A DNA stretch of 47,287 nt from Oligoflexia bacterium (GTDB taxonomy: Bacteria; Bdellovibrionota; UBA1018): contig CAIUGE010000025.1 of NCBI GenBank assembly GCA_903898645.1, positions 1 to 47,287 on the forward strand. The letters run 5' to 3'. Within the stretch, counting starts at the first letter, position 1. Every line of letters starts with the position of its first letter. Shown here piece by piece: positions 26,839 through 33,606 of the stretch. Made by a program: the position numbers and the translations under genes. A model generated the notes under the pieces. That model made no database searches and was not told the DNA's origin. It was given only the letters and a program-made list of their open reading frames with translations.

Positions 26839-26898
26839 CAGCTTGACACATATTGGTAGCATTTGCCAAAAAGATCCAAGCAGCCTAAGATGTGGCCA

Positions 26899-27468
26899 AT
26901 GCGTTTTATTGTTTTCGAAGGCTGTGAAGGAGCAGGGAAGTCAACACTGATAGAGGCTCTCGCCAAAATCTTGCCAAATGCTCTAAAAACCCGTGAACCA
27001 GGCGGATCCCCGGTCAGCGAACAGCTCCGGGCGATCCTTATCGAGCAGCACCTATCGCCCATAACCGAACTCTTCTTAATGCAAGCTGCACGCGCCGAAC
27101 ATATGGCGCACACCATCCTGCCTGCCCTTGCAGCTGGACGCATAGTCCTTTGTGATCGGTTTACTGAATCCACTATTGCCTACCAAGGTCACGCCAGAGG
27201 CATTGATCTTGAGCTCATTACCCTCACCAATAGAGCAGCGTCAGAGAATCGCTCTCCAGATCTGACTATCTACCTCGCAATTGACCCAGCTCAGGGACTA
27301 GCGCGCGCCCGCAACCCAAACCGTTTTGAACAAGAAGGGATCCTTTTTGCGAAAAAAGTCCATGATGGCTATATGCATGCCCATGCTTGTGCCGATCACC
27401 CCTGGCTCATCCTTGATGGCACAGCACCGATTGAGATCAATCAAAAACGAGTGTTGGATCTTTTGTGA
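26899..27468 (+). CDS. tmk: Thymidylate kinase
   Basis: Phosphorylates dTMP to dTDP. About 189 residues, slightly short. P-loop FEGCEGAGKST is at the N-terminus. TREPGGSPVSEQLR is the dTMP-binding DRX-like region, and DRFTESTIAYQGHARGI holds the DR(Y/F)xxSxxAYQ motif. The C-terminal lid is short. I chose ATG 26899 (MRFIVFEGCEGAGKS); ATG 26890 and TTG 26863 are in frame. It is the first gene of the long plus-strand operon, with holB starting inside its stop codon. Confidence 0.95.
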   Translation: MRFIVFEGCEGAGKSTLIEALAKILPNALKTREPGGSPVSEQLRAILIEQHLSPITELFLMQAARAEHMAHTILPALAAGRIVLCDRFTESTIAYQGHARGIDLELITLTNRAASENRSPDLTIYLAIDPAQGLARARNPNRFEQEGILFAKKVHDGYMHAHACADHPWLILDGTAPIEINQKRVLDLL

Positions 27469-28274
27469 AAGAACGCCTACTTACTCATCACATACACACT
27501 TTGCAACCCTATCGCACAAGCTGGCGCTCCCAACCACCGGGTGCACTCCTCATACTAGGTAGCGAGGCATTAGGATCACATCTTGTTATGGCGCTCCTAA
27601 CGCAAGATTTTCTCTGTGATACAAAAGATTCCTGCAACCAATGCCCATCATGCATGGCCTTGAAAGAAAATAGACACTTTTCAGCAACATGGATGTATGA
27701 CGTCAAAATAGACGCCATTCGAGAACTTTTAGCATCTCGCAGCATCTCCCGTGTCCAGCATCGATGCGTTATCCTACCTGATATTGACACTATGAGCCTT
27801 GGCGCAGCCAATGCCCTTCTTAAAATTCTTGAAGAACCCCCCCCTGCATGGACATTCATCCTGTCCTCTATGCATGGCGATAAAATTCCAGCCACGATTC
27901 GCTCCCGGTGCCAGAAGCTGCATCTCAAACCCTTGTGTCTACCAGGAGAGACTTTTCTTGCGCCTCTGGCCTCAAGTCATCCATTGACGTATAAAAAGCT
28001 GACACAAACTGATGCAAGCCGTATACTGGTAGACGCACTCTTAGGAAAAGAAAAAATAGCTGCACTCACAGACTGGGCAACCAAGGAGTTTGAAGACTTT
28101 ATGATCCTACTTGAACACCTCACGCATGCAGGTCTTTTAGGCACTGCACCCATTACGCGTTCCCAGCATTTTTGGCTCCATATGACTGATATTTTGCATG
28201 ATGCTCGAAGTGACTCCAATTGCAATCGGAAGATCCTTATCCAACACCTTTTTTGGGAGCTCATGCGTGCTTAA
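27465..28274 (+). CDS. holB: DNA polymerase III delta-prime subunit
   Basis: Clamp-loader wrench subunit, 269 residues. The usual Walker A is absent (GALLILGSEALGSHL), as in other delta-prime proteins that do not bind ATP. The zinc module reads CDTKDSCNQCPSC. IDTMSLGAANALLKILEEPP and SS...IPATIRSRCQ (sensor 1 and SRC motif) are typical. It starts GTG 27465, with GTGA overlapping the tmk stop. The tmk-holB pair is common in bacteria. The C-terminal third is poorly conserved. The end overlaps the first MCE ATPase by 8 bases. Confidence 0.93.
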   Translation: MKERLLTHHIHTLQPYRTSWRSQPPGALLILGSEALGSHLVMALLTQDFLCDTKDSCNQCPSCMALKENRHFSATWMYDVKIDAIRELLASRSISRVQHRCVILPDIDTMSLGAANALLKILEEPPPAWTFILSSMHGDKIPATIRSRCQKLHLKPLCLPGETFLAPLASSHPLTYKKLTQTDASRILVDALLGKEKIAALTDWATKEFEDFMILLEHLTHAGLLGTAPITRSQHFWLHMTDILHDARSDSNCNRKILIQHLFWELMRA

Positions 28275-28926
28275 AGTAGATGGATTGTCCTATAAAAAAC
28301 TTTTTCAAAACATATCATTCAACTTACCTCAAGGTACCCATGCAAGCCTCATCGGGCCATCAGGCTCAGGCAAAAGTACTCTTTTACGCATTATTGCAGG
28401 ACTCCTCCCGCCAACACAGGGATCAATGATTCATGCGTCAAACAACATTGGGATGCTCTTTCAAAGAAATGCTCTTTTTGATTCGCTGACAGTTGAAGAA
28501 AACCTCCTCTTCCCCCTACGAGAAAGATGTAGGATGGTTGGACAAAAAGCGCGCGCCAAGGCATCAGCGGCTCTAGAGGCGGTCGATCTTGCTGGCACAG
28601 AAGAAAACTACCCTTATGAGCTGTCAGGCGGTATGCAAAAAAGACTCAGCATCGCAAGAGCCCTCATCGTGCATCCCGACCTCTTACTCGCCGATGAGCC
28701 AACAGCTGGCCTTGACCCCATTACCTCAGACACCATTGGCTGCCTCCTTGATAGACTTGTCTCCGAACACGGCACAACCCTCCTCACTGTTTCAAGTGAT
28801 ATGCAGCAAGCGCTCCGAGGCTCCTCTATCTTTTTCCTCGATCAAGGAACCTTTTTAAAAACAAACACGACAGAAATCTGCTCGCACCATGCACTCAAAT
28901 GCTTTTTTTATGGGCTTTCTTTATGA
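28267..28926 (+). CDS. MCE/Mla-type ABC transporter ATPase, subunit 1
   Basis: About 219 residues, MlaF family. Walker A GPSGSGKST, Q-loop MLFQRNALFD, signature LSGGMQKR, Walker B LLLADEPTAGLDP. The switch-His position reads TVSSD: His is replaced by Ser, so its own ATP site is likely weak. The ABC signature is canonical. I start it at GTG 28267 (VLKVDGLSYKKLFQ), 8 bases inside the end of holB; an upstream ATG at 28198 would add a non-ABC stretch. It ends in ATGA shared with subunit 2. It drives lipid transport between the two membranes together with the permeases below. Confidence 0.92.
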   Translation: MLKVDGLSYKKLFQNISFNLPQGTHASLIGPSGSGKSTLLRIIAGLLPPTQGSMIHASNNIGMLFQRNALFDSLTVEENLLFPLRERCRMVGQKARAKASAALEAVDLAGTEENYPYELSGGMQKRLSIARALIVHPDLLLADEPTAGLDPITSDTIGCLLDRLVSEHGTTLLTVSSDMQQALRGSSIFFLDQGTFLKTNTTEICSHHALKCFFYGLSL

Positions 28927-29633
28927 GTATTATTTTTTCTGGGATCTCAACAGCTTTTGGCACAAAACAGGTTTTAAAAGATATCAATTTTGAAGTTTCG
29001 ACGATGACATTTCTGCTCGGAAAAAGCGGCGCAGGCAAATCTGTCACCCTCAAACATATCATGGGTCAAATTCCTATCCAACAAGGCTCAATTACACTCG
29101 ACGGTTCAATTCTTTCACCGCAATCACGCAGCCTTTGCGGCATGGTCTTTCAGCAGCCAGCACTTTTCGACTCCATGAATATTTTTGACAACATCGCCTT
29201 TGGGCTCAAAACTGGCAATAAAAAGGAGCGTGTTTTAGAACTCCTCCATCATGTCGACCTTGATCCCAGCATCGTCACCAAGATGCCTCATGATCTCTCC
29301 TATGGCATGCAAAAACGTGTTTCTATTGCGCGTACCTTAGCACCAAATCCACGCTACCTCCTATTTGATGAACCGACGACAGGATTAGACCCGCTTGCAA
29401 CGCGTCTCATTTCAGACCTCATTATGCATGTCGCAAATACCTGCCATGTCACATGCCTTGTGGTCTCACACGATATTGGAAGTGCTCTTCGCATAGCAAA
29501 CCATATTCTCTTCTTGGATGACTGCCGTATCGTTGCCTCAGGTGATCCGAAAACAATTCAACTATCCACGAACCCACTTGTTCAGGCATTTCTTGGGAGG
29601 CACGCAGTATGCTCAGATTCATTCGTGAACTAG
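28923..29633 (+). CDS. MCE/Mla-type ABC transporter ATPase, subunit 2
   Basis: About 236 residues, MlaF family. Walker A GKSGAGKS, Q-loop MVFQQPALFD, Walker B YLLFDEPTTGLDP and an intact switch His (VVSHD). The signature reads LSYGMQKR, with Gly replaced by Tyr. This is the mirror of subunit 1: paired as a heterodimer, one composite site would be fully consensus (Walker A, B and His of subunit 2 with the signature of subunit 1) and the other degenerate. The start is ATG 28923, overlapping subunit 1 by four bases. The C-terminal ~25 residues (ASGDPKTIQLSTNPLVQAFL) are typical of MlaF-type ATPases. Confidence 0.93.
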   Translation: MSIIFSGISTAFGTKQVLKDINFEVSTMTFLLGKSGAGKSVTLKHIMGQIPIQQGSITLDGSILSPQSRSLCGMVFQQPALFDSMNIFDNIAFGLKTGNKKERVLELLHHVDLDPSIVTKMPHDLSYGMQKRVSIARTLAPNPRYLLFDEPTTGLDPLATRLISDLIMHVANTCHVTCLVVSHDIGSALRIANHILFLDDCRIVASGDPKTIQLSTNPLVQAFLGRHAVCSDSFVN

Positions 29634-30373
29634 GTGCTATCGTTTTATTTACAAAATCCATTTTGTACGCCCTCTGGATAGGCCCTGCAAGCATGTGGCA
29701 TGAAATTTTACATGAAACATCTCGCATTTTCTGGCGATCACTGCAAACGATTAGTTTTGCCGGTTTTTTTGTAGGCGCAATCCTCATACTGCAGTTTGAT
29801 ACTATCCTGGCACGCTATGATGCCCGCCTCTACTTAGGTGGCGTCTGCATGTCAACTATAATCCGCGATGTCGGTCCCTTAATCATTGCATTTCTCCTTG
29901 TAGGTAAGGTAGGGGCCTATACAGCAGCCGAACTGGGCACCATGCGCGTCACTGAACAGATTGATGCCCGCGAATGCCTAGGCGCCGAATCTTTCGTGAC
30001 CCTTCTGGCACCTCGCTGGATGAGCATCGTGCTTGCAAGTCTGACGTTACTTATAGCAGGACTCAGCATCAGTATTGGAGGTGCCTTTTTTCTTGCACTC
30101 ATCCATTCTAGCATTAACATGCATGAATTTCTCTTCTTAGTGCCTCGTTTTAATGGCTTCAGCACTTTAGGAAGTGGCCTTCTTAAGTCATTTATCTACG
30201 GCCTACTTGTTGCAACACTTGCATGTTTTTATGGTTTTTATGCAAAAAACGGAGCAGCAGGCGTTGGCCGCGCCGTCACGAAGGCGACAGTCGGAACACA
30301 TTTTTCGATTATTGTAGCCAATTACCTCACAGGCACACTTCTCACTGCCCTCGAACATCTTGGAGGCCCCTAA
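29609..30373 (+). CDS. MlaE-type permease, subunit 1
   Basis: 254 residues, MlaE/YrbE family. About five membrane segments. Family signatures seen: DVGPLIIAFLLVGKVGAYTAAELGTMRVTEQIDA (coupling region) and FYGFYAKNGAAGVGRAVT near the C-terminus. It starts inside ATPase 2 (25-base overlap) with GGGAGG as ribosome site. The paired second permease follows directly, so the membrane core is probably a heterodimer. Confidence 0.92.
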   Translation: MLRFIRELGAIVLFTKSILYALWIGPASMWHEILHETSRIFWRSLQTISFAGFFVGAILILQFDTILARYDARLYLGGVCMSTIIRDVGPLIIAFLLVGKVGAYTAAELGTMRVTEQIDARECLGAESFVTLLAPRWMSIVLASLTLLIAGLSISIGGAFFLALIHSSINMHEFLFLVPRFNGFSTLGSGLLKSFIYGLLVATLACFYGFYAKNGAAGVGRAVTKATVGTHFSIIVANYLTGTLLTALEHLGGP

Positions 30374-31101
30374 TGTGGCGCATGCTTGCATCCATTCTTA
30401 TCGATATACCTCACTTTCTCATACATCCAAGACGCTTTAGGTGGCGAGAAACACTAGAGGCCTTAAGTACCCTTGGCGCAGGAAGCTTTCAGGTCATTAC
30501 GCTTGCAACAGCTTTTGCAGGCATTGTCATCACACATGAAATGGCCTGGCATATGCAAAAGGCGCTCCACTCTGTTGCCATGGTACCTGGCATGAGTGCA
30601 CAATTTATTGTTCGGGAACTTGCTGTTGCCGTTCCCGCTCTCCTCCTTGTCTCCAAAGTAGGTGCATCATTAACAGCTGAAATTGCAACTATGAAGATCA
30701 CCGACCAAATAGACGCCCTTCGTCTCCTTGGTATTAACCCGCTTGATTATCTTCTTTACCCACGCTTAATTGCATGTACCGTTGCGGGAGGAGCTTTAAC
30801 CCTCATCTCCATTCTTGTCACTCTTCTGTGCTCTGTTGCTACAGCTCGCGCCTACCATTTTTCACCACCAGAATACCTCGCACTTGCTGGACATTTCATG
30901 AAATTGACTGATGTTATCCAGGCCGTTATCAAAGGCTCAACCTATGGCGCAATCATTCCGATTATGAGCTGTGCCTACGGGTTTTGTTGCCGCGGAGGCG
31001 CGGAAGGCGTCGGCCATACAACGACGCAGTCAGTAGTTGCTTCGACATTGTGCGTCATAGTGCTTGATTTTATCCTGACTATGCTTTTTTCTCTCATATA
31101 A
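30373..31101 (+). CDS. MlaE-type permease, subunit 2
   Basis: 242 residues, MlaE/YrbE family. KVGASLTAEIATMKITDQIDALRLLG and CAYGFCCRGGAEGVGHTTTQSVV are the two family signatures. It has about five membrane segments. It diverges strongly from permease 1, so this is not a recent duplication. The start ATG 30373 shares one base with the stop of permease 1 (TAATG). Confidence 0.92.
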   Translation: MWRMLASILIDIPHFLIHPRRFRWRETLEALSTLGAGSFQVITLATAFAGIVITHEMAWHMQKALHSVAMVPGMSAQFIVRELAVAVPALLLVSKVGASLTAEIATMKITDQIDALRLLGINPLDYLLYPRLIACTVAGGALTLISILVTLLCSVATARAYHFSPPEYLALAGHFMKLTDVIQAVIKGSTYGAIIPIMSCAYGFCCRGGAEGVGHTTTQSVVASTLCVIVLDFILTMLFSLI

Positions 31102-31146
31102 TGCAGAAAGGTGTGCGAGCATGCAAACGAAAGGAATCACTTTGAA

Positions 31147-31971
31147 ATGAAGCAACACGAACTTAAGGCAGGAGCCTTACTCCTTCTGGCTTTCGCCTCC
31201 ATTCTTGCTTTTGCATGGATCGTAGGTGTCAATAATCCGCTTTCTCACAGACTTCACCTCTATGTAACGTACCATTTTGCAGGTGGCATTGAGATTGGCT
31301 CTCCTGTCAGAGTTTCTGGCATTAAAGTAGGCCAAGTTGATACTATTGAATTTTACGCTATGCAAAAAAGCGAGGTCATCTCCAACAAAGAGCCCGGCAG
31401 CATGCAAGATGACAAAAATACCGCACAGGCACCAGTCCGTCTGAGGCTTTCTATTGACCCAAAAGCTGCAATCAGCATACGTCAAGACAGTAAATTTTAT
31501 ATCAATCTTGCCGGCGTTATCGGCGAGCGCTACATTGAGATCACACCAGGCCATAGAAACAAGGGGGAGATCCACGAAGGTGACCAACTCATTGGTACCG
31601 ACCCTCCACGCATCGACCAACTCCTTTCACAAAGTTTTGACCTTGCAGGTAAGATTGCCAGTCTCATTGAAGATAACAAAGACGACATCACCCACACTGT
31701 TGAACTCATGGTAAAACTCAGCACGAACCTGAATAAAACTCTCACCTGGGTGGAGCGAAGCGAATTATTTAAATCAGACCTTGGCAAACTCGTCACAAGC
31801 CTGCTTGCACTGAGCCAGGATCTGCACAAAATGACACAGAAAATTCATGGACCTGAAGGTGAACGTATGATGCAATTACTCAGCAAACTGATCCAACGAT
31901 TAGAACCGCTTGAGCAAAAAGCTATCCTTGATTTCTTTCAAAAAGAAGGCATTCGAGTGCACCTTTTTTAA
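31147..31971 (+). CDS. MCE-domain (MlaD-like) periplasmic lipid-transport protein
   Basis: About 274 residues. One N-terminal membrane helix (LKAGALLLLAFASILAFAWIVG) anchors it in the inner membrane. The MCE domain (about 35-155) starts YHFAGGIEIGSPVRVSGIKVG and holds LSIDPKAAISIRQDSKFYI and GVIGERYIEI. A charged insertion (residues ~78-100) sits inside it. The C-terminus is a helical tail (VELMVKLSTNLNKTLTWVER onward), suited to forming a tunnel in a hexamer. ATG 31147 was chosen (MKQHELKAG); GTG 31111 is in frame but lacks spacing. No MlaB or MlaC gene is near, so the shuttle partners are missing or elsewhere. Confidence 0.92.
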   Translation: MKQHELKAGALLLLAFASILAFAWIVGVNNPLSHRLHLYVTYHFAGGIEIGSPVRVSGIKVGQVDTIEFYAMQKSEVISNKEPGSMQDDKNTAQAPVRLRLSIDPKAAISIRQDSKFYINLAGVIGERYIEITPGHRNKGEIHEGDQLIGTDPPRIDQLLSQSFDLAGKIASLIEDNKDDITHTVELMVKLSTNLNKTLTWVERSELFKSDLGKLVTSLLALSQDLHKMTQKIHGPEGERMMQLLSKLIQRLEPLEQKAILDFFQKEGIRVHLF

Positions 31972-31974
31972 TCT

Positions 31975-33606
31975 ATGACAGGAATGTGGCTATTTTTTCT
32001 TAACATAGTGACTGTACAAGCAACCTTCAAGCGTCACACAGAATGCCTCAACCGAGAACACCCACCTTGCCACGGCGCAGCAGGGAGCTGCATTTTTAAC
32101 GATGACGGTCAACCCGGTGGATTTGTCGCAGATACTGCGACAGTCAGCTCCCGACGAGGGCGACACGCCTATATTCATCTCGATGCCGAGGTCTGTGACC
32201 ATGCCTCTGTCTCACCTTATGCTCGCATTGATAACTCTGCCAGTATTCGTGACTCAGCCCATATTGAAGGAAACGCTACTGTCCAAGATAAAGCCTCCGT
32301 CATACAAGAAGCTATGGTCTTAGGCCCCGTTCTGATTTCAGATAATGCTATTATCTCAGGCTCAGCCGTCATCACATCCTATGCTCATGTGCGGCAGAAC
32401 GCCCATATTACTGAACATGCCACGATTACTGGGCACGCTCAAATAGCAGGCAACGCCAAGATCCTTGGCTATGCTCAGATTTCTCAATATGCAGAAGTGC
32501 GCGACTATGCGCATGTATCAGGCCACGCTATGATCACCAACCATGCTAGAATTGGTGGCACCAGCCTTATATCCGGTCATACCCTCCTTCGGCATAGCTG
32601 TATTCTTTTTGACGCCCCCACCGTCCTTGATCATGCCACAATAGAAGGACGGGCCGTCTTAAGCGGAAACTCCATTGTCGCAAACCGTGCCCGTATATCA
32701 GGCACTAGCTTTATCCAAGGCAATGCCGCAATTTTTGAAAATGCTACTATCGTCAGTGACTCATCCCTCTCTGATGCATCCTGGATTGCAGGTGAAGAAA
32801 AAATACAACGAAAAATCTACCTACATAGTGCTCATACAGTAAGAAACAACCGTATTATTGACGAACAACGCCCCACTTACCAAGAAGCCAGCGTACTCTT
32901 TCATGCTTTCGCTCAGCGTAAAACACATAGCGACGAAGAAACATGGCTGGATGAAGTCATACTCAACGACCAGACTCTTTCTATTGACGAACTACCATCA
33001 TCTCTCATCGACTCTTGGATCCTCAAAAAAGCGCATGAACCCGCACTCTTTCAGAGCATCATCAGTCAAGCCGAGGATATTGTACTGAGATCCCCCACAG
33101 AACTTCAAATCTTTGAAGACACTATGAAATCACTCCCAGAAGACTTGAAACAAAAAATAAGCTGTGCATTTGGCGAGACTCTCCATAAGAGCAAAGAGAC
33201 AAAGAACAATCCTCTTTTCCAACTCCGAAAAACAAGTCCTGTTGAACAGCTGCGTATTCGCGTCCTTCGCCTTCGTATCGAACAAGGTCTGCGTCAATCG
33301 CACTGGACCCAAAATCCAGCACATAGGGATGCGGCAGAAACAACTGACTATAATATTTGGCTCTATGATAACACCTACGATTACATCACGCTCTTAAGTG
33401 TCCTAGAAGCGATTGAATCTCAAACTATTGATCATTTCATTCACCAGATGGTATCTTTTATCTCAAGCTTTCCAGAAAACGAGTATGCCGCAAGGCAAGG
33501 ATTCCTTGAGAGTTTCACTCACCTCTATGTCACAGGGCTCTTTCCCTCGGAAGGAATTCGCCAGACATACTACCATTTTATTCTTCGTTGCGGCCATCTG
33601 TATTAA
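31975..33606 (+). CDS. Exported left-handed beta-helix (hexapeptide-repeat) protein
   Basis: 543 residues. A short signal peptide (MWLFFLNIVTVQA) precedes a Cys-containing stretch (ECLNREHPPCHGAAGSC). Residues ~73-269 are hexapeptide repeats of the type A.I.(G/D).A.(I/V), e.g. NAHITEHATITGHAQIAGNA, giving about 33 hexapeptides or 11 helix turns. The last ~270 residues are helical, without repeats. Many such sugar or acyl transferases are cytosolic enzymes with a trimeric helix, but the signal peptide and lack of catalytic His context suggest a structural or binding role here. It starts 3 bases after the MCE gene, so it is likely part of that operon; ATG 31984 is an alternative start. Function unknown. 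Confidence 0.82.
   Translation: MTGMWLFFLNIVTVQATFKRHTECLNREHPPCHGAAGSCIFNDDGQPGGFVADTATVSSRRGRHAYIHLDAEVCDHASVSPYARIDNSASIRDSAHIEGNATVQDKASVIQEAMVLGPVLISDNAIISGSAVITSYAHVRQNAHITEHATITGHAQIAGNAKILGYAQISQYAEVRDYAHVSGHAMITNHARIGGTSLISGHTLLRHSCILFDAPTVLDHATIEGRAVLSGNSIVANRARISGTSFIQGNAAIFENATIVSDSSLSDASWIAGEEKIQRKIYLHSAHTVRNNRIIDEQRPTYQEASVLFHAFAQRKTHSDEETWLDEVILNDQTLSIDELPSSLIDSWILKKAHEPALFQSIISQAEDIVLRSPTELQIFEDTMKSLPEDLKQKISCAFGETLHKSKETKNNPLFQLRKTSPVEQLRIRVLRLRIEQGLRQSHWTQNPAHRDAAETTDYNIWLYDNTYDYITLLSVLEAIESQTIDHFIHQMVSFISSFPENEYAARQGFLESFTHLYVTGLFPSEGIRQTYYHFILRCGHLY

Follow-up and report, generated by a model that had tools for sequence, protein, structure and literature searches.

An MCE-type transporter operon of Bdellovibrionota encoding two ATPases predicted to form a motor with one active site

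An operon at positions 28267-31971 of the window, by which we mean the whole 47,287-nucleotide stretch of Oligoflexia bacterium DNA analyzed here, very probably (about 0.83 in our estimate) encodes an MCE-type lipid ABC transporter with a lopsided motor. Two different ATPases, A1 and A2, would form an obligate heterodimer on a heterodimeric permease, P1:P2, beneath an MCE ring of the protein M. One composite ATP site of the motor (site I) would hydrolyze ATP, and the other (site II) would be slow or inactive. The data show the sequences, their conservation, the inheritance of the genes as a set and a constraint that tracks the composite sites. From these we infer the physical A1:A2 heterodimer, the unequal hydrolysis and the hexameric ring; membership of the family points to lipid as the likely substrate.

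The genes, all on the + strand, follow each other in the order A1-A2-P1-P2-M and overlap or nearly so. A1 (28267..28926, start GTG at 28267) and A2 (28923..29633, start most likely ATG at 28923, with 28899 possible) are MlaF-like ABC ATPases that match Pfam ABC_tran. They are followed by two MlaE-family permeases, P1 (29609..30373) and P2 (30373..31101), and by M (31111..31971, start GTG 31111 or ATG 31147), an MlaD/MCE-domain protein. The earlier note on this DNA had described two ATPases and two permeases in overlapping order, and both the coordinates and the Pfam matches agree with that description. Upstream lie tmk and holB (26863..28274, + strand), neighbors that are conserved in the window's taxonomic family and order and fall outside the transporter; holB spans 27465-28274 and its 3' end overlaps the start of A1. 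The next gene after M (31975-33606) codes for a protein of 543 residues whose beta-solenoid repeats are hexapeptide/YdcK-like. The genome from which the window comes amounts to 2.02 Mb in 118 contigs.

By three tested features the operon is an MCE transporter. The permeases match the Pfam MlaE family (E = 1.9e-50 for P1 and 1.9e-51 for P2), and the MCE-domain protein encoded with them matches Pfam MlaD (2.4e-15), in each case above the curated cut-off. The ATPases are of the MlaF/MceG type, with MceG and MlaF chains among their best PDB sequence matches and MlaF among their top structural matches. They are not MlaF proper, because their scores against the NCBIfam MlaF equivalog model (130 and 133 bits) are far under its cut-off of 441. 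In AlphaFold2 models (pLDDT 91.5 for A1 and 93.7 for A2), A1 matched solved MlaF with Z 27.5 and rmsd 1.5 over 219 residues, and A2 matched MlaF 6xbd with Z 29.2 and rmsd 1.8 over 228 residues; several other importer ATPases tie with MlaF as structural matches of both. As modeled, A1 and A2 each have an intact MlaF-like fold.

Walker A, the Q-loop and Walker B are intact in both ATPases of the window. A1 combines Walker A GPSGSGKST, the Q-loop Gln, signature LSGGMQKR and Walker B LLLADEPTAGLD with an H-loop, TVSSD, in which Ser takes the position of the switch-His. A2 combines Walker A GKSGAGKSV, signature LSYGMQKR and Walker B YLLFDEPTTGLD, catalytic Glu included, with an H-loop, VVSHD, that keeps the His. 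This mirrored arrangement, LSGGM with a lost His in one subunit and an altered LSYGM with the His in the other, had been pointed out before, and every residue was located as claimed.

In a head-to-tail ABC dimer, each ATP site draws its Walker A/B, Q-loop and H-loop from one subunit and its signature from the partner (PMC7756269), and the sites of the MlaF dimer close with Walker A facing the signature (PMC7784689). In an A1:A2 pair, site I would unite the Walker B Glu and the His of A2 with the LSGGM of A1; this is a full consensus and the expected site of hydrolysis. Site II would unite the Walker B of A1, with Ser, Asn or Thr for His and often Asp for Glu, with LS[Y/F/H]GM of A2, and it would bind ATP with slow or no hydrolysis. 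The hallmarks of degenerate sites are replacement of Glu by Asp, a changed H-loop and a changed signature in the partner (PMC7756269). Because site II bears changes typical of known degenerate sites, hydrolysis is expected at site I and would be slow or absent at site II. With the catalytic Glu kept in the window's A1, site II may retain some activity in this particular transporter.

The ATPase motifs of A1 and A2 were surveyed across 110 distinct loci, all in the phylum Bdellovibrionota. The A1 signature SGGM was present in all of them (110/110). At the switch position of A1 we found Asn in 91 loci, Ser in 14, Thr in 2, Gly in 1 and His in 2; the switch-His is lost in 108 of the 110, and both loci that keep it have Asp for the catalytic Glu of Walker B. 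That Glu is kept in the window and in 36/110 loci and replaced by Asp in 74/110, so the degeneracy of A1 in most relatives goes beyond what the earlier note described. In A2 the catalytic Glu was found in 110/110 loci and the switch-His in 109/109 readable ones. The third residue of the A2 signature was Tyr in 94 loci, Phe in 13 and His in 2, and Gly in 0/109 readable (1 of 110 was unreadable). Neither a consensus A2 signature nor a fully consensus A1 Walker B/His occurred among the readable loci of the 110. Across these distinct loci, site II was complete in no readable case and site I was damaged in none. Independent variation of the altered residues among relatives had been named as an outcome that would speak against a heterodimer; it was not seen over the 110 distinct loci, and the idea survives the comparison.

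The single-ATPase MCE system encoded in the same genomes provided a control. Its neighboring ATPase carried LSGGM, DEP and THD in 28/28 readable loci, and the window's own genome is among the 28. The motif pattern of A1 and A2 is not a matter of chance, because the same residues recur in 110 distinct loci, nearly all with the same gene order, as against the canonical single-ATPase systems of the same genomes. A third MlaE and MCE pair, with an MCE protein of 448 aa, was seen at locus L096 (genome G000, contig C84, 5500-13000), where no MlaF-like ATPase was seen beside it within that stretch. Close to this pair lie a TolC-like protein and an HlyD-like adaptor, along with a fragment of an ABC exporter; the fragment has signature LSHGQ, a Walker B (MLLDAF) that lacks the catalytic Glu, and no clear switch-His.

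Substitution counts were then mapped on the tree of P1, which does not depend on the ATPases. For site I (A1 signature residues 3, 4 and 5, the A2 Glu and the A2 His) the count was 0 changes. At site II we counted 8 changes for A1 Glu/Asp, 8 for the A1 His position, and 7, 4 and 11 for A2 signature residues 3, 4 and 5. Constraint follows the composite sites of an A1:A2 heterodimer and not the single subunits, because the site I positions are fixed and the site II positions are variable. These counts, 0 at site I and 4 to 11 at each position of site II, bear out the proposal of one full and one degenerate site by head-to-tail composition. Together with the conservation over 110 loci they also support, as a reading of sequence, the stronger proposal of an obligate heterodimer with only one active site.

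The same numbers bear on whether both sites of the heterodimer could hydrolyze ATP, with Ser/Asn/Thr and the Tyr signature as working substitutes and the asymmetry merely cosmetic. With Walker A and the signature Ser preserved on each side, both sites can bind ATP, and the A1 Glu survives in about a third of the loci (the 36 noted above) as well as in the window. However, a site II that drifts by 4-11 changes beside a site I that never changes fits a relaxed demand on site II, and Asp in place of Glu together with an altered H-loop is a recognized mark of degenerate sites (PMC7756269). We consider two working sites unlikely.

A1, A2 and canonical MlaF each form a clade of their own (SH-aLRT 96, 99 and 99), as do P1 and P2 (SH-aLRT 100 each), so the duplications predate the split of the sampled families. 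That each ATPase and each permease has held its own lineage is also what two homodimeric transporters sharing one operon would produce, each ATPase homodimer (A1:A1 or A2:A2) serving a permease of its own. Such an arrangement is highly improbable, however, as both sites would be impaired in each homodimer (A1:A1 without His, A2:A2 without a consensus signature), there would be no reason for constraint to track trans-composite sites, and the operon has a single MCE gene. Each protein contains both conserved and drifting residues, and these sort into whole sites only in the A1:A2 pairing, a pattern that a homodimer of either protein would not produce. Compared with their relatives, the window's four ABC genes sit on long end branches (P1 2.03, P2 1.31, A1 1.47 and A2 1.41 changes per column), which suggests fast evolution in a small-genome lineage.

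At least 115 of the 140 loci have the order A1-A2-P1-P2-M, and the remaining loci are mostly broken by contig ends or have no recognized M within the stretch. A1 was not adjacent in three loci uncut at A1 and was found elsewhere in the genome in two of these three; the relocated genes keep the degenerate motifs DDP and TND. Locus L197, from a metagenome assembly, has A2, and A1 was not found in that genome. Natural A1-A2 fusions, which were sought as evidence of pairing, were not seen among the 140 loci. In several Bdellovibrio-type loci (L075-L080, L084, L190 and others) A1 and A2 are separated by insertions of about 0.2 to 3.7 kb, compared with the tight overlap in the window. Genome G143 (locus L214) contains a second A1-like ATPase whose motifs, LSGGM, YDDP and ATHSM, retain the switch-His but have Asp for the catalytic Glu; it perhaps belongs to a second heteromeric system. 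Long branches of some A1 sequences, the window's included, could be read as a decaying or purely regulatory subunit heading for loss, but this is scarcely credible when the whole phylum preserves Walker A, the Q-loop and most notably SGGM, when A1 persists in the two genomes that carry it apart from the operon, and when the AlphaFold2 model is that of a well-folded NBD.

E. coli MlaFEDB has the composition MlaF2-MlaE2-MlaD6-MlaB2, in which a single kind of MlaF and a single kind of MlaE are each present twice (PMC7790496, PMC7784689). The window's operon likewise has MlaF-, MlaE- and MlaD-family subunits, but where E. coli uses homodimers of MlaF and MlaE with two active sites it has paralogous pairs of both. 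MlaA was found in 0/77 genomes, the window's genome included, and MlaC in 15/77, with no match in the window's genome, which also gave no match for MlaB (STAS_2). With no match to MlaA, MlaC or STAS_2 in this genome, the system is not an E. coli-type Mla pathway (MlaFEDB with MlaC and MlaA). Mycobacterial Mce1 (YrbE1A/YrbE1B-MceG2-Mce1A-F) combines a heterodimeric permease, YrbE1A/YrbE1B, with an MceG homodimer as ATPase (PMC9882608). The window's system resembles it in the paired permeases, and among PDB sequences A2 matches MceG best. Unlike Mce1, in which MceG is encoded away from the operon and six different MCE subunits form the ring, the window has a pair of different ATPase subunits and one MCE gene. 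In its logic the predicted motor resembles TAP, TM287/288, ABCC/CFTR, Pdr5 and ABCG5/G8, where Glu to Asp and an H-loop change on one side and a signature change in the partner fall in the same composite site (PMC7756269). In the survey and the change counts, the substitutions of A1 and A2 likewise fall in one composite site, and the other is consensus. Those transporters belong to other transmembrane families, whereas the motor here is part of a lipid transporter of the MCE/MlaE type, and the resemblance reflects convergence in mechanism, not kinship.

The spread of the system was followed through P1-type permeases, defined by E < 1e-43, where a clear gap separates them from weaker MlaE matches. 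They were present in 79/143 genomes searched. A scan of 84,980 genomes (species) returned 131 P1 relatives, and the best 80 of these 131 are mostly named Bdellovibrionota; the oddly named loci checked among these 80 (L204, L158, L132, L136 and L131) coincide with places already found in Bdellovibrionota. As far as seen from these best 80 relatives, the predicted heteromeric MCE pump is specific to this phylum of predatory bacteria.

Known MCE structures use ATPase homodimers, including Mce1 with its heterodimeric permease (PMC7790496, PMC7784689, PMC9882608). In the open-access papers searched for MCE with heterodimeric ATPases or Bdellovibrio, no MCE transporter with a heteromeric ATPase was described, and within that literature this is the first lopsided two-ATPase motor for MCE/Mla-like lipid pumps that we could find. 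Degenerate ATP sites have been studied mainly in exporters and CFTR, and what keeps them in place is a standing question. If our reading is true, an MCE-family lipid transporter reached the degenerate-site design independently. The symmetric MCE system of the same genomes would serve as an internal control, and one-site and two-site motors could be compared within one family and often within one cell. The operon would also mark a cell-envelope lipid pump of a predatory-bacterium phylum, specific to it as far as seen. More tentatively, and at somewhat less than even odds, the class may be phylum-wide, probably including Bdellovibrio bacteriovorus, and may have arrived on its own at the one-active-site motor of TAP/CFTR/Pdr5-type exporters; ATP at the degenerate site would then hold the dimer partly closed and, with the unlike permeases, would produce an asymmetric stroke that moves lipid in one direction through the MCE ring.
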